Source of the DNA: Acidimicrobiales bacterium AG-414-N20 | GTDB lineage: Bacteria > Actinomycetota > Acidimicrobiia > Acidimicrobiales > MedAcidi-G1 | Length of the DNA stretch: 64,000 nt | Reading direction: 5' to 3' | NCBI GenBank assembly: GCA_003214465.1 | Contig: QCLO01000002.1 | Span: 62,001-126,000, forward strand | In this document: piece by piece, positions 27,847 to 36,310 of the stretch | Layout of the letters: each line of letters opens with the position of its first letter | Position numbering within the stretch: the stretch's first letter is position 1 | Notes under the pieces: generated by a model | The model's database searches: none | Told to the model about the DNA's origin: nothing | What the model saw: the letters and a program-made list of their open reading frames with translations, nothing else | Position numbers and translations under genes: made by a program

Positions 27847-28608
27847 CTATTCCCATTGTTCAGTTGGTAGATCTATATCTGCTTCTTTGGCTGGTTCTAG
27901 TGTTGTAGCTGTTGCGTAGTCTTTTTCTAAAAGAGCTGAATCTGTTCCTTCAGGTACCGGGTCGTTGCATGGTTCGAGTTCTATGTCTATGCCAGTTGAG
28001 TCTTTAGAAGTTATTACTGTTTGAACTCTTCCTATGTGAGCTAAATCGGCTTGTCGGAACCCAAGAACTTCTTTTAAGGGTTTGTTTGGAATGTTCAAAT
28101 TTAGCATTGTTGCATTTGGAGCTGAAGTTAACCATTGGAGAGGTTGGGCTGTCATTTCCTTCGCAGTCTCCCAATATTCGTGTGTGTCTATAGAGGGATG
28201 GTAATTGATGCTCACGGCTATTCCTGAACGGTCAAATCTTGCTGCCGTTTTTACAGCTGCGATTGTTCCTGAAAACAAAGTTGACCGGCCTGTGTTTGGA
28301 CCTAGATTAACTCCTGAAGCAACCATGTCAGGTGGGTCTCCGAAACCTCCGAGCATCGAGAGCATGACAATCAATGCAGGTGGTGCGCCTACTGAAAATG
28401 ATTTGATGCCTTCAAGGTCTGGAATTTCTAATTCTTCTACTGCTACTCTGTCATGGTCATTGAATGGCATGAGCGAAGCTGAAACACCACTCATGTTTTT
28501 TGAAGGTGCGGCTACCACGGCTTCGTGTCCTAGTTCTGTAACTGTTTGTGCTAGCGCGTATAGGCCTTTTGAATCAATTCCGTCATCGTTTGTAATAAGA
28601 AATTTCAA
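27847..28608 (-). CDS. surE: 5'/3'-nucleotidase SurE
   Basis: SurE, 253 aa, is a metal-dependent nucleoside monophosphate and short polyphosphate phosphatase. The metal site is seen in ITNDDGIDSKG (D8, D9), and further in SGVNLGPNTGRSTLFSGTIAA. Its ATG overlaps the stop of the upstream response regulator gene by 4 nt (28605-28608), which puts a phosphate-releasing enzyme within the phosphate-regulation operon. Confidence 0.93.
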   Translation of the reverse strand: MKFLITNDDGIDSKGLYALAQTVTELGHEAVVAAPSKNMSGVSASLMPFNDHDRVAVEELEIPDLEGIKSFSVGAPPALIVMLSMLGGFGDPPDMVASGVNLGPNTGRSTLFSGTIAAVKTAARFDRSGIAVSINYHPSIDTHEYWETAKEMTAQPLQWLTSAPNATMLNLNIPNKPLKEVLGFRQADLAHIGRVQTVITSKDSTGIDIELEPCNDPVPEGTDSALLEKDYATATTLEPAKEADIDLPTEQWE

Positions 28609-29330
28609 TTGGCTACTTCACTTTTTGGTTTGTTGTACTTGTAACCCACACCTCGAATGGTAAGAATCTTTTCTGGTTTTGTGGGTTCCTCCTCAATTTT
28701 TGATCTTAAACGTTTTATGTGAACATCTAAAGTTTTTGTGTCTCCTACATAATCCATGCCCCATATACGATCAATCAATGTGTCTCGTGTTAAAACAATT
28801 CCGGCGTTTTCCATGAGAAAAGCTAGTAATTCAAATTCTTTCAAGGGTATTGAAATAATTTTATCTCTTATCTTTACTTCGTACCGCTCTACATATACCT
28901 CTACATCACCAACAGAGATCGTTGAGAATTGTTCTTCTGTAAAATTAGGGGGTCTGTTAGATTTTTGAGCTCTCCTAATAACAGTTCGCATTCTTGCAAC
29001 GAGTTCTTTTAATCGGTAAGGCTTAGAGACATAATCATCAGCTCCTACTTCTAAACCAACAACTGTGTCAATTTCTTCTCCCTTTGCGGTAACCATAATT
29101 ATTGGAACGTCAGAGCGGCTTCTTATCTGCCTACAAACATCAATGCCGGAAATTTTAGGGAGCATTAAGTCAAGAAGAATTAGATCAGGGTTAAATTTCT
29201 CGAATGCTATTAAGGCTTCAGATCCGTCTTTTGCTATTTCTACAGTAAAACCTTCTCTCTCCAATCCAACTTGAAGAGCTTCAATAAAGGAAACTTCATC
29301 TTCTACTACCAGTACTCGAATGCCGTTCAT
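28605..29330 (-). CDS. OmpR/RegX3-type response regulator (copy 1)
   Basis: A 241-aa regulator with a receiver domain (acidic pocket E10-D11, phospho-acceptor D54 in LILLDLMLP, lysine in VSKPYR) and a C-terminal winged helix (DVHIKRLRSKIEEEP, TIRGVGYKY). Start ATG overlaps the histidine kinase stop by 4 nt. It is a close paralogue of the regulator on the other side of the kinase gene (30510-31214), sharing most receiver and DNA-contact residues. Probably responds to phosphate; which of the two is the main PhoP/RegX3 equivalent is not clear. Confidence 0.9.
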   Translation of the reverse strand: MNGIRVLVVEDEVSFIEALQVGLEREGFTVEIAKDGSEALIAFEKFNPDLILLDLMLPKISGIDVCRQIRSRSDVPIIMVTAKGEEIDTVVGLEVGADDYVSKPYRLKELVARMRTVIRRAQKSNRPPNFTEEQFSTISVGDVEVYVERYEVKIRDKIISIPLKEFELLAFLMENAGIVLTRDTLIDRIWGMDYVGDTKTLDVHIKRLRSKIEEEPTKPEKILTIRGVGYKYNKPKSEVAN

Positions 29331-30509: not shown

Positions 30510-31214
30510 TTATGCCTCGTAGCGGTATCCGACTCCACGAATTGTGATAACCCGTAACGGTCTTTGTGGGTCGTCTTCGATCCGAGAACGAATTCTTCGG
30601 ATGTGGACATCGAGAGTTTTAGTGCCTCCGACATAATCTGTTCCCCACACTGCATCAATTAAGTCATCTCGTGACAAGGCCCGTCCTGCGTTCGCCACCA
30701 ACTGTAATAACAATTCGTACTCTTTAAGTGGGAACGCAATAAGCTGGTCATTTAGTAAGACTTCATGCCGATCTTGATCAATAACAAGATCTCCTGCCTT
30801 TAGTATGCTCGGCACGTTTTCGATGGCTTTGTCCTGATTCCGTGCTTCTGATCGTCGTAGTACGGCTCGAACTCTGGCTACAAGTTCCCTGAATTGATAA
30901 GGCTTTGTCACATAATCATCAGCGCCAAGTTCTAAAGCTACGACTGCATCTACTTCTTCTGTTTTTGCAGTAACCATTACGATTGGTACTTCAGATTTCA
31001 GGCGAATCAATCTACAGACATCAAGACCTGACATGTTTGGAAGCATCACGTCTAGAAGAACAAGATCTGGGGTCTTCCGTTCAAAAGCTTCAATCGCTGA
31101 AACGCCGTCTGCTACCCACTCCACATCAAATCCTTCACGGGTAAGACCCACCATAAGAGCGTCCGCAAATGACTCTTCATCCTCAACTAAAAGAACGTAC
31201 GGAATATCAGACAA
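30510..31214 (-). CDS. OmpR/RegX3-type response regulator (copy 2)
   Basis: A 234-aa paralogue of copy 1, with phospho-acceptor D55 (LVLLDVMLPN), TKPYQF at the lysine, and a winged helix ending RIRSRIEDDPQRPLRVITIRGVGYRYEA. Start is TTG at 31214, directly after the phoU stop codon. A very strong AAGGAGG lies 5 nt before it within phoU, so the weak start codon is offset by a strong site. Position next to phoU and upstream of the kinase suggests this is the canonical phosphate regulator, with copy 1 an added one. Confidence 0.9.
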   Translation of the reverse strand: MSDIPYVLLVEDEESFADALMVGLTREGFDVEWVADGVSAIEAFERKTPDLVLLDVMLPNMSGLDVCRLIRLKSEVPIVMVTAKTEEVDAVVALELGADDYVTKPYQFRELVARVRAVLRRSEARNQDKAIENVPSILKAGDLVIDQDRHEVLLNDQLIAFPLKEYELLLQLVANAGRALSRDDLIDAVWGTDYVGGTKTLDVHIRRIRSRIEDDPQRPLRVITIRGVGYRYEA

Positions 31215-31925
31215 CTACTCCTCCTTGGATTTTTTTTCTTTATATTCAATGCGAGCGCGGCCAGTGTCTTCTGGTAAACGGCCAGAAACCATGTATGAAA
31301 CTCTTTCACCTATATTCACTGCGTGGTCGCCGATACGTTCGTAATAGCGTCCTATAAGCGCCATTTGGACAACTGGCTGAACTTCCCCACTCCCACCTTC
31401 AGCATCTTTAAAAAGACCTTCTAAGAAATCAATGTGGAGGCCATCGAGACGATCATCAATGTCTTCTAAAGCTCTCGCTAAGCCTTCGTTGTTTTGATAG
31501 TAAGCATCCACTGCCAGGTTTAATAGCCGAACAGCTTCGTCGCTCATAAGTACGAGATATGCCTTAGTTGATGACGGTATTTCATAACCAAGAATTCTCC
31601 GATTTGCTTTGCATATATTGCTTGCTAGGTCAGCTGACCTTTCAAGTTCTCCCACAATCCATAGAGCACTAATCACTGCTCGAAGGTCGCCGGCTACAGG
31701 ATTTTGAAGTAAAAGTACAGACTGACATTCCTCTTCAATTTCTAAAGCAAGAGCGTCAACTTCATCATCCTCGTCGATTATGCGTTGAGCATCTTCCAGA
31801 TTTGTTTCAAAAAGTGCTTCTGTCGCTTGAGTAACTCTTTCACTTGCCATTGAGCCTAAGCGGGCAATGTCTTCGCGAATTTCTTCTAATTCTTGATGAA
31901 AACTTTTTCGGCTTTCACTCTGCAT
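31215..31925 (-). CDS. phoU: Phosphate transport regulator PhoU
   Basis: PhoU, 236 aa, with two three-helix bundles carrying the metal-binding acidic repeats (VDALALEIEEECQSVLL in the first; DRLDGLHIDF and YYERIGDHAVNIGERV in the second). It is a peripheral protein that links PstSCAB to the sensor kinase and shuts off the Pho response when phosphate is plentiful. It lies 32 nt downstream of pstB with AAGGAGAA before the ATG, and is adjacent to a response regulator gene. Confidence 0.95.
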   Translation of the reverse strand: MQSESRKSFHQELEEIREDIARLGSMASERVTQATEALFETNLEDAQRIIDEDDEVDALALEIEEECQSVLLLQNPVAGDLRAVISALWIVGELERSADLASNICKANRRILGYEIPSSTKAYLVLMSDEAVRLLNLAVDAYYQNNEGLARALEDIDDRLDGLHIDFLEGLFKDAEGGSGEVQPVVQMALIGRYYERIGDHAVNIGERVSYMVSGRLPEDTGRARIEYKEKKSKEE

Positions 31926-31957
31926 GGTTGGTTCTCCTTTCTATAAAACTTGGGTGG

Positions 31958-32833
31958 TTACCCAAATCTTCCTGTTACGTAGTTTTCTGTGCGTTGGTCT
32001 TCTGGGGTAGAAAAAATCTTTTCGGTTGAATCACATTCGATCATCACGCCAGTGGGACGAGTGTTATCTGCTCCGGGCTCAGTTGAAAAGAAAGCCGTTC
32101 TACTGCTCACACGGGCAGCTTGTTGCATGTTGTGGGTGACAATCACTATTGAATATTCTTCTTTAAGTTCCTGCATCAGGTCTTCTATCCGTGTTGTAGC
32201 TATTGGATCTAACGCAGAACAGGGCTCATCCATGAGTAAGACTTCAGGCCCAACCGCTAAAGCTCGAGCGATACAAAGTCTTTGTTGCTGCCCACCAGAT
32301 AATCCAAGGGCTGAATCTTTTAATCGATCTTTTACCTCATCCCATAGGGCTGCTTTTTGAAGTGATTGTTCAACAACCTCGTCTAATTCTTTTTTCATCC
32401 CTCCAACTCTTGGACCAAACGCCACATTGTCGTAAATGGTTTTCGGGAACGGGTTTGGTTTTTGAAATACCATTCCAATGCGACGCCGAACCGCTACTGG
32501 ATCTACTTGTGAGTCATAAAGATTAATTCCACGAAATTTGACTTCTCCGGTAACTTTCGCTGTCTCAATTAAGTCGTTCATTCGGTTCAAACAACGAAGA
32601 ACGGTAGATTTTCCACACCCTGATGGCCCTATCATGGCCGTGATTTGATTACGTGGAACAGAGAATTCAACATCTTTTACAGCTTTAAAATCGCCATAAG
32701 AGACATTTAGTTCTGAAATGTCAAAAACTAGTTCTGTTTCTAATGTTCCTTCTTCCGAGTGTTGGGGCTTAGGAGTAACAGTTTCCTCAGGCTCTGTATT
32801 CTCTTTGGTTTCTATATTCATTTTTTGTATCAC
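31958..32833 (-). CDS. pstB: Phosphate ABC transporter ATP-binding protein
   Basis: PstB, 291 aa. Walker [11 protein letters not shown]-loop [10 protein letters not shown], signature [15 protein letters not shown], Walker [14 protein letters not shown] and H-loop IVTHNM are all intact. PstB marks such as the [14 protein letters not shown] segment are present. It has an acidic N-terminal extension of about 35 residues before the usual domain. The ATG overlaps the pstA stop by 4 nt. Confidence 0.96.
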
Positions 32834-33786
32834 TTTCTTCGTTTCTCAAATCTGTTGCGAAGCAAAATTGCTATTGAATTAAGTGCAAGAACGAAAATGA
32901 GTAAGACAACGATTGCTGCTGCCGCCGCTCCTGCAAAGCCAGGATCTCGGCCAGAATTTTGTGTCCACTCAGTTATGACAATCGGCATCGCTACGAATCG
33001 TTCTTTAAGCGCCCCAAGGTCAAGAAATCCGGGGTTTGTCCCTAATCTTCCGGTTACTGCACCAACTAATATGAGAGGTGCTGCTTCTCCGATAGCTCGT
33101 GACATGGCAAGAAGTGTTCCTGTGAGTATGCCTGGGGCGGCATAGGGAAGAACTTGTCTGCGTACCACTTCCCAGCGTGTCGCTCCGACACCGTATGCTC
33201 CTTCCCGTAGGCTTTGCGGGGTAGCTCGAATAGCTTCTGAAGCCGTGATTATCACTATTGGTAGAACGAGAATGGAAAGAGTTAATGCTGCAGATAGTAA
33301 GGATTTTCCCCCCGTCCACTTCCCGAATGTATTCACAAAAATGAAGAGTCCAAGTAACCCATAAACAACGGAAGGAACACCAGCAAGGTTGCGGATATTG
33401 ATTTCAATAAATCGAGTTAACCGATTTTTTGGTGCGTACTCCTCGAGGTATATTGCTGCACCTATTCCAATTGGGAAAGCGACAATAGCGGTAGTGACAG
33501 CTATCCAAAATGAGCCAACTAAGCCTTGATGGACTCCTAATTTCTCATCTATTGATCTTGATCGGAGAGTTCCAGATAGGAAATCTCCGAACCGAGTTGA
33601 GAGTGTTCCCCACCCATTTTGTACTACGTCAACAAGTAATACCGTCAAAATTAGTAGTGCAAGGAAAAGTCCTAATTGAAGAAAGGTTCGGAAAATAATT
33701 CCTCTTGGATCAGAGTTTCTTCTTCTAATTTCGTCGTTTATACGATCCGCTACTTTCCCATCATTTAGGGTGCTTCCAATTTTCAT
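32830..33786 (-). CDS. pstA: Phosphate ABC transporter permease
   Basis: PstA, 318 aa, six predicted membrane helices. The binding-protein-dependent transport loop is seen as [23 protein letters not shown]. It has a hydrophilic N-terminal extension of about 35 residues. The start overlaps the pstC stop by one nucleotide and the end overlaps pstB by four, so the three are co-translated. Confidence 0.94.
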
Positions 33787-34709
33787 TAGTAGCGCTCCTG
33801 AACTCGTCGCACGAAACGGTCAGCGACCATATTCAACATGAAAGTTATTGCAAAGAGTAATAATCCGACGAAGAAAAGGCTTTGAAAAGTAAGTCCTTCC
33901 CCTTTTACTTGGTCTGTGCCGCTAGCTAGCGAAGCCATTGCGGCGGTCATCGTGAGGCTTCCTTCGAATGCGGAGTGTGTGTATCCAGCACTGTCTGCTG
34001 CTCCGCCGGCAATAAAAACCACCATGGTTTCGCCTATGGCTCTGGATGTCGCAACAATAAAACTTGCGACGATGCCAGATATTGCTGCTGGGAATACCAC
34101 TCTTGAGGAGATAACTGATTTTCGTGCTCCAAGTCCGGCTCCTGCTTCGCGTAAATCTAACGGAACTGCTTTCATGGCATCTTCAGAAACCGAAGCGACA
34201 AGGGGGATAGTTAACAGCCCAACGCCTACACCTGCGGCTGCCAAAGATCCGGCTGAGGCATCTTCATTAAGCCTTCCGATTATCTCTGGGGCAATGAAGA
34301 ACAAGGCAAAGAAACCCAACACAACGCTTGGCACGCCAGCAAGAATTTCTAAAACTGGTTTAATAAAGGCGCGGGTACGACTTGAAGCATATTCAGATAG
34401 ATATATGGCTGCTGCTAAACCAATTGGTCCAGCTACTGCCATTGCAATACCAGTTGTTATGAGTGTTGCAACAAATAAAGTCTTTACGTCATATAGCCCA
34501 CGGCGTGGATACCAGCCTTCGCTCCATGTGCTAGCCCAGTCAATGCCGACTATGAAATCCCAAGCTTCTGAGAATAAAGAAAAAACTAAAACGATTGAAA
34601 TAACAACTGAAATAAGAGCTGTAAATAGAAGTAGAAATTTTGCGTTTCGTTCTTTGCGAACACGACGCGGAGCGGTCTGAAGATCTTCGATGGTGACTGT
34701 ACCGCTCAC
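33786..34709 (-). CDS. pstC: Phosphate ABC transporter permease
   Basis: PstC, 307 aa, six predicted helices with the permease EAA-type loop (SEDAMKAVPLDLREAGAGLGARK) and VAGPIGLAAAIYLSEYAS. It forms the membrane channel with PstA. It is separated from pstS by 202 nt that contain a stem-loop (34834-34880), a layout that usually lets more PstS than permease be made. Confidence 0.94.
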   Translation of the reverse strand: MSGTVTIEDLQTAPRRVRKERNAKFLLLFTALISVVISIVLVFSLFSEAWDFIVGIDWASTWSEGWYPRRGLYDVKTLFVATLITTGIAMAVAGPIGLAAAIYLSEYASSRTRAFIKPVLEILAGVPSVVLGFFALFFIAPEIIGRLNEDASAGSLAAAGVGVGLLTIPLVASVSEDAMKAVPLDLREAGAGLGARKSVISSRVVFPAAISGIVASFIVATSRAIGETMVVFIAGGAADSAGYTHSAFEGSLTMTAAMASLASGTDQVKGEGLTFQSLFFVGLLLFAITFMLNMVADRFVRRVQERY

Positions 34710-34833
34710 AACAGTCTCCCTTTAATTTACTTCGACTTTTAAATAACTAACCACAACCGAATAGTAAAAAAGATAGGTAACGAATAAGAAAGAATTAAGT
34801 AAACAAAAAGTAAACAGTTCAAGAACAAGCAGA

Positions 34834-34880
34834 AACCAGGATCAACAATTCTCGGGAGAGGGGGGTTGCCGATCCTGGTT
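34834..34880 (-). terminator. Stem-loop between pstS and pstC
   Basis: 10-bp perfect arms AACCAGGATC (34834-34843) and GATCCTGGTT (34871-34880) with a 27-nt loop containing a C-run on the transcribed strand. No U-tract follows, so it looks more like a mRNA-stabilising or partial-termination element downstream of pstS than a complete intrinsic terminator. The effect on pstS versus pstCAB levels is inferred. Confidence 0.5.
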
Positions 34881-34911
34881 ATTCGCTGCTTTATTCAACG
34901 ATTTGTGGGAA

Positions 34912-36027
34912 CTAGCGTGAGCTCCAAGTGTTTTGTGTTGCCGCCATTTCAACAGCTGCAAGTGGAACGTATCCGACTTCGGTCACTGCATCTTGGAGTG
35001 AAACTTCGGTCATAAAGAAGTCAACATAAGCTTCAAGAGCAGGATTATCTGCAAGTTTGGCTGGATTCACATAGATGAACAATGGCCTGCTTAATGGATA
35101 CTCACCTGAAGCGATAGTGACTGGTGTAGGAGCGACACATCCGTCTCCCCCATCCATTTCAAGGAGTTTGACATCTGCAGCGTTTGCTGCGAAAGCAAAC
35201 CCGACCCAGCCAAGACTGGTATCGCTTCCTTGAATACCAGTGAGAATAACATTGTCGTCACCTGAAGAAACATAGTCTGGGCGTGCTTCCCGCGATTCCT
35301 GATCACGAGATTTAGCTATTGATTTGAATGTCATTTCATTAAATGAATCAAAAGTTCCAGACTCAGCACCCGGTCCGAAAATATCAAGCGGCGCATCGGG
35401 GAAACCACCGGTTCCACCGAGCTCTACTGCAAGATCATTTGCATCTGACCAAGAATCAAACCCAGTTGATTCAGGACCAACCAGAGCGTAAAGGTCTCCT
35501 TTTGAAACACAATCCACAGCATCATTATTTGCATTGGTCATAACACCAATACCGTCGATACCAACTTGTAATTCAATGTACTCAACACCAGTCGCAGCGC
35601 ATGCCTCTGCTTCCGCGTCTTTAATGGCACGAGACGCACCAGAAATGTCTGTCTCTCCATTACAGAACAATTCAAAACCATCACCAGTACCCGGACCATC
35701 AACATTGACAGCAACACCAGGAGCGACGTCTTCAAACAATTCAGCTACACGAACAGAAACCGGTTCAACAGTTGAAGAACCAGAAACCTCAACCGTTCCT
35801 TCCAGACTTCCGACTTCTTCTACTGACTCTGATGCAGATGCAGTTTCTTCAACAGTTGAAGAACCAGAAACCTCAACCGTTCCTTCCAGACTTCCGACTT
35901 CTTCTACTGACTCTGATGCAGATGCAGTTTCTGGAGAAGATGATGAACTATCTTCACTGCTGCTACAACCGAAAACAACAGCAGTACATGCCAGCAAAGC
36001 AAAAAGATTAATCAACCTACGCTTCAT
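34912..36027 (-). CDS. pstS: Phosphate-binding lipoprotein PstS with internal 28-residue duplication
   Basis: High-affinity phosphate-binding protein, 371 aa. The signal peptide MKRRLINLFALLACTAVVFGC ends in a lipobox with C21 as the lipid-anchored residue. A serine-rich linker follows. Residues 33-60 and 61-88 are identical copies, each including the first beta strand and loop of the mature domain (EGTVEVSGSSTVE); only the second runs on into PVSVRVAEL. Binding-site segments GTGDGFELFCNGETDISGASR and GAESGTFDSF are seen. I chose the ATG at 36027 because AAAGGA lies 7 nt upstream and the signal peptide follows; the frame from 36072 adds 15 unlikely residues. The first gene of the pst-pho operon, preceded by a candidate PHO box. 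Confidence 0.93.
   Translation of the reverse strand: MKRRLINLFALLACTAVVFGCSSSEDSSSSSPETASASESVEEVGSLEGTVEVSGSSTVEETASASESVEEVGSLEGTVEVSGSSTVEPVSVRVAELFEDVAPGVAVNVDGPGTGDGFELFCNGETDISGASRAIKDAEAEACAATGVEYIELQVGIDGIGVMTNANNDAVDCVSKGDLYALVGPESTGFDSWSDANDLAVELGGTGGFPDAPLDIFGPGAESGTFDSFNEMTFKSIAKSRDQESREARPDYVSSGDDNVILTGIQGSDTSLGWVGFAFAANAADVKLLEMDGGDGCVAPTPVTIASGEYPLSRPLFIYVNPAKLADNPALEAYVDFFMTEVSLQDAVTEVGYVPLAAVEMAATQNTWSSR
35764..35932 (-). repeat. Perfect 84-bp tandem duplication inside pstS
   Basis: Two identical 84-bp units, 35764-35847 and 35848-35931, with the match running one further base. The unit keeps frame (28 codons) and encodes ETASASES...VSGSSTVE twice. No mismatch is seen, so the copies are recent, actively homogenised, or the product of assembly. 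Confidence 0.97.
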
Positions 36028-36090
36028 AACGTTTCCTTTTCTAGATTTTAAGATTGACGGCCTATCCGCCAAATCTTCTCAGCACAACAT

Positions 36091-36115
36091 AAAAAAGGCG
36101 GCTAAACAGAAGCCG
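36091..36115 (-). terminator. Terminator-like hairpin in the pstS upstream region
   Basis: On the minus strand CGGCT-(7 nt)-AGCCG (36115 down to 36099) is followed by CC and six U residues (36096-36091). This has the form of a short intrinsic terminator, located between the candidate PHO box and the pstS start. It could be a leader attenuator, or could simply lie upstream of the true transcription start. The stem is only 5 bp. Confidence 0.4.
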
Positions 36116-36122
36116 ATCATTT

Positions 36123-36162
36123 GGAGAACTTAAGGTAAACAGTTGATAAAAATTTGGTTTAA
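36123..36162 (-). promoter_or_regulatory. Candidate PHO box (11-bp direct repeats) upstream of pstS
   Basis: On the minus strand heptamers recur at exact 11-bp spacing: TTAAACC (36156-36162), TTTTATC (36145-36151), GTTTACC (36134-36140) and GTTCTCC (36123-36129). The last two are close to the GTTCACC unit known from actinobacterial PhoP/RegX3 boxes. They stand about 95-135 bp before the pstS ATG, a sensible place for activation. The other two units are degenerate. Confidence 0.55.
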
Positions 36163-36310
36163 CTCTTTTAGATTGAATTTTTTATAAGAAATATTTCATA
36201 CAAAAATTCATGATTTTTTGGTCTTTTTATATAAATTTTCTATTTTTTACGCCAGTTTTATGTCGTTTGTGAGAGAAATGGTTCTGCAAGCGAAACTAGG
36301 AGATTAATTA

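Follow-up and report, generated by a model that had tools for sequence, protein, structure and literature searches.

An exact in-frame tandem duplication in the predicted tether of PstS, carried on an apparently exchanged pst cassette in Acidimicrobiales

The window analyzed here is a 64,000-nucleotide (64-kb) stretch of contig QCLO01000002.1 of Acidimicrobiales bacterium AG-414-N20. It contains a pstSCAB-phoU operon with a response regulator gene (30510–36027), flanked by a WhiB-like gene on one side and a phoR-like/phoB-like pair on the other, with all operon genes on the minus strand. The products of pstC (33786–34709; TIGR02138), pstA (32830–33786; TIGR00974), pstB (31958–32833; TIGR00972) and phoU (31215–31925; TIGR02135) score above the cut-offs of their families, whereas the 371-aa product of pstS (34912–36027) is a near miss to TIGR02136 (192.7 bits, below the curated cut-off of 206.6). 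PstS passes PF12849 (PBP_like_2; 123.9 bits, gathering cut-off 27), and the best matches of the OmpR/PhoB-type response regulator (30510–31214) are below curated cut-offs. A cysteine at residue 21 of PstS (35965–35967, minus strand) fits the lipobox sequence pattern and is predicted to start the mature tether, by which the protein would be held to a lipid anchor. Two PhoB-type response regulators (30510–31214 and 28605–29330) adjoin a single PhoR-like kinase. In the neighboring segment 27847–30454, the position of surE varies between genomes: in the window and in G005 it lies after the phoB-like gene, and in G022, G018 and G026 it precedes phoR.

Tandem Repeats Finder (TRF) detected a single array in the whole window, at 35764–35932 within pstS (period 84, 2.0 copies, 100% match, 0% indels). 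Direct base comparison gave a period-84 identity run of 85 bases, corresponding to two identical 84-mers and one additional matching base; judged from the sequence, a tandem copy that is exact over 84 bases cannot be put down to chance. Each unit comprises 28 codons, is translated as ETASASESVEEVGSLEGTVEVSGSSTVE, present twice in tandem, and ends past the first strand and the GSSTVE phosphate-loop motif; at the unit–unit junction, ACTGTTGAA is followed by GAAACTGCA. The N-proximal unit 1 (35848–35931, minus strand; residues 33–60) consists of linker and a spare strand-1/loop sequence, and unit 2 (35764–35847, minus strand; residues 61–88) of linker and the strand 1 and phosphate loop assigned to the fold. 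The initial annotation had thus correctly described a perfect in-frame duplication (84 = 3 × 28) of a unit containing linker, first strand and phosphate loop. It had also placed a serine-rich linker inside the unit, which holds for the SAS/acidic linker part (ETASASESVEEVGSL) but not for the poly-serine run SSSEDSSSSSP, which precedes the units.

Because 84 is 3 × 28, a change in copy number alters length and never the frame, which excludes the earlier suggestion of phase-variable slippage in the on/off sense. As a candidate phase-variable (contingency) locus defined by frame switching, pstS was rejected; the 6-bp repeat unit of the G022 allele described below likewise preserves the frame. The ends of the duplication share 1 bp of microhomology, so slippage between pre-existing direct repeats, at least in its simple form, fails to explain the origin of the array. 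Once present, the two 84-base copies could slip or recombine to give one or three units.

A model of the window PstS was built with AF2 from an alignment of this protein and 29 reading frames from 30 loci, leaving out stopless frames and those outside 250–420 aa. In the resulting model (pTM 0.74), regular structure is formed from unit 2 onward, with a strand at residues 77–82 (block pLDDT 83–87) and a helix at 88–101; the one-unit protein of locus L026 has its strand at residues 57–63. Residues 1–70 have no secondary structure (block pLDDT ~46–51), and neither does unit 1 (block pLDDT ~48–51), although unit 1 falls in a mostly gapped part of the alignment, so the low pLDDT there is partly built in, whatever the truth. 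Foldseek ranked PstS structures highest, with 4jwo in first place (TM-score by target length 0.85) and SAR11 PstS 9jwy in second, and the GSST motif of 9jwy is aligned to that in unit 2. AF2, Foldseek and the alignment agree in giving the window protein the PstS periplasmic-binding fold with its GSST phosphate loop. According to the part of PMC12421899 consulted, SAR11 PstS binds phosphate through Ser32, Ser33 and Thr34, which presumably are the GSST residues of 9jwy in that numbering. Unit 1 lacks the alignment-invariant proline and helix 1, both of which come after unit 2. The model agrees with the proposal that only the second copy joins the fold, and copy 1 is likely to be disordered.

The closest homolog found for the window pstS is in G022 (Acidimicrobiales bacterium AG-410-I20, contig QCKS01000006.1), which belongs to the same family and another genus. 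Over 30517–36259 the two genomes are 97.4% identical, compared with ~64–71% in the flanking segments; we refer to this block, on the minus strand, as the pst cassette. The G022 gene carries a single unit, and its linker contains 6.5 copies of a 6-bp repeat at the corresponding point, a microsatellite expansion independent of the window duplication. Within the ~5.7-kb block, coding indels between the two are confined to the linker, the other five cassette genes being gap-free. The block core differs at 64 of 5,000 sites (bins 30750–35749), or ~1.3%, so that ~1 difference per 84 sites would be expected for units dating back to the block split, which makes perfect unit identity weak evidence of youth. 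The one-unit relative appears to be the better evidence: the duplication, previously called a recent event, does look young on the scale of a ~97%-identical block that carries one unit in G022, but identity by itself says little about age. Parsimony based on single-unit relatives points to a gain in the window rather than a loss in G022. The copy-number variation that the initial annotation had suggested looking for in related pstS genes was seen, but only as two units versus one, in two genomes. A pstS match at 1e-20 was obtained in only 2 of the 48 family genomes (G000 and G022), so no series of one, two and three units can be drawn within the family.

In the relatives G026, G001, G004, G002, G009, G014 and G030, the corresponding site carries a PhoU-like gene together with a Na/Pi symporter, as it does in G018 as far as the contig reaches. 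The symporter family is found in 40 of the 48 family genomes, including all 23 that are at least 90% complete; the eight genomes without it are the window's own, G022 and six incomplete ones. Upstream of pstS, the window is a patchwork: 36233–36330 matches the window's own genus (G001 and G004) at 90–93%, 36131–36259 shows a 90.8% match to the promoter of the symporter in G026 (genus g2), and between 36259 and pstS the match is to G022 (96%). The pstSCAB-phoU-phoB block is thus apparently a mosaic insert with genus g2 as its source and a recombination seam in the promoter (36233–36259, unstranded), the outer side of which is like the window's own genus and the inner side like g2. Our reading of this mosaic is that genus g2 donated the block to the window's lineage and that the crossover fell within 36233–36259.

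In G018, contig C27 (L075:1–189) opens with the final 96 bp of the cassette (98%), and the symporter comes immediately after. This arrangement led us to reject strict mutual exclusion of Pst and Na/Pi transport; it identifies G018, on the sequence at hand, as a third cassette carrier cut by the contig end, in which Pst and symporter can coexist. The side-by-side transporters of G018 are perhaps an intermediate. In G005, of the window's genus, the contig ends at the start of the phoR-like gene, and a phoR-like match at 1e-40 is found in only two of the nine genomes of this genus. Direct repeats (GTTTACC...) with an 11-bp spacing are present upstream of both the pst allele (window 36123–36140) and the symporter allele (L076, just upstream of 7365); these repeats may resemble the Streptomyces PHO box.

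Linker variation was assessed more broadly in the order, where pstS occurs in 157 of 397 genomes; the loci taken from this survey were limited to the best 30 of these matches, so the linkers compared are a sample. Defining the linker as the segment from the cysteine to GSST, we reduced 72 distinct PstS reading frames to 67 by dropping five that had no recognized lipobox, and then to 64 by removing three apparent linkers of more than 90 residues that were second domains of fused proteins. The 64 distinct linkers are 11–87 residues long (median 29), compared with 62 in the window. TRF arrays scoring at least 40 are present in 17 of the 64 linkers (2.04 per kb) and in four of the 64 domain stretches that follow them (0.078 per kb); at a score of at least 30, the corresponding figures are 19 (2.28 per kb) and 28 (0.55 per kb). 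Growth of linkers by small frame-preserving repeats thus appears common in these relatives, in part reflecting the low-complexity make-up of linkers. A second GSST loop within the linker was found in the window alone (1 of 64), and the window unit, unlike the remaining linker arrays observed, also covers structured sequence, namely strand 1 and the loop. Reading frames L084, L086 and L103 (702, 702 and 671 aa) contain two full PstS domains in tandem. A search of viral contigs for relatives of the window PstS yielded 14 pattern matches, none of which was confirmed, and in the portions of the literature covered by our search we found no report of a tandem duplication in phosphate-binding PstS.

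These observations are probably best explained by a young, length-changing in-frame duplication in a length-tolerant lipoprotein tether, with a near-neutral effect or a mild change in reach. An 84-bp in-frame duplication would have arisen recently in the part of pstS encoding the tether that joins the phosphate-binding domain to the lipid-anchored cysteine, extending the tether ahead of the GSST loop from the 34 residues of a single-unit form to 62. The second copy would supply the fold with its strand 1 and phosphate loop, and the first would remain unstructured and serve as extra tether. Lengthening of the linker, one of the effects originally proposed, is the best supported of them. Because the tether region tolerates changes in length and has gathered small tandem repeats across the order, the two-unit allele would most likely be near-neutral or alter reach mildly.

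A longer anchor might instead be adaptive if it extended the reach of PstS across the cell wall or improved its docking on PstCA, with low phosphate as the selective condition. Gram-positive lipoproteins are described, in the part of PMC7530257 available to us, as anchored in the membrane and spanning the wall, and both pstS alleles of the family exceed the presumed 34-residue form through unrelated mutations, the duplication adding 28 residues and the microsatellite 8. We consider selection for length rather unlikely, however, as the case rests on two alleles and single-domain linkers of 11–87 residues occur across the order, so that no length looks required. The other functional possibility, related to the decoy strand suggested in the initial annotation, is that unit 1 tunes affinity, either by competing with unit 2 for its place in the fold or taking that place over, or by binding phosphate alone. 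Unit 1 does retain an S-S-T triplet that aligns with the Ser32-Ser33-Thr34 ligands of SAR11 PstS (PMC12421899, in the numbering assumed above), but it is unstructured in AF2, has neither the invariant proline nor helix 1, and the remaining phosphate ligands sit elsewhere in the domain. A spare strand with a function of its own is extremely improbable, and the decoy found no support.

It is also unlikely that the second copy was created by a chimeric read or a misassembly, that is, by an artefact of amplification or assembly. Amplification chimeras can form direct joins, and the 169-bp array exceeds many k-mers; against this, a one-unit allele offers no template for a unit–unit junction, and the repeat is exactly in frame within a 175-kb contig. 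Tandem copy counts may be misjudged where the repeat is longer than the reads (PMC6868369), but the failure described in the text we drew on is mainly a collapse of copies, which loses units. Returning to a young duplication in a length-tolerant tether, a broader extension of it would be that PstS tether length evolves as repeat-number alleles tuned to phosphate supply. This is very unlikely; if true, frame-preserving duplications and microsatellite growth would repeatedly give a longer reach to a high-affinity phosphate transporter shared by horizontal transfer, and the lengthening would come after Pst displaces the low-affinity symporter. The window and G022 alleles, with two units and one on a block ~1.3% diverged in its core, form a natural pair for testing the effect of tether length on nutrient capture.

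The window protein shares with the known PstS/PBP_like_2 lipoproteins (PF12849; PDB 4jwo, 9jwy) the fold, the GSST loop and the pstSCAB-phoU operon, and differs from them in having an additional copy of the strand-1/loop sequence in its tether. As in other systems of in-frame tandem repeats in disordered protein linkers, the unit is a multiple of three, length varies between close homologs, and there are several independent cases, here within the pstS gene family; the window unit differs in that it is long (84 bp), includes a structured element and has no clear flanking direct repeats at its origin. The duplication is thus ordinary in kind, and the exchange of the cassette deserves more attention than the repeat. 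For the flexible phosphate genomic islands of marine HIMB59, the portion of PMC10734472 we relied on places pst at equivalent positions and proposes exchange by homologous recombination. The window cassette likewise occupies an equivalent position, is patchily distributed and has apparently been exchanged between lineages; its distinguishing features are that it is found in Acidimicrobiales, that the exchange is between genera, and that other genomes have a PhoU-like gene and a Na/Pi symporter at this site. On its sequence, the cassette adds another example to the exchangeable phosphate islands already known, and this swap of a Na/Pi symporter for Pst between genera, with its seam still visible, would bring such islands to Acidimicrobiales.
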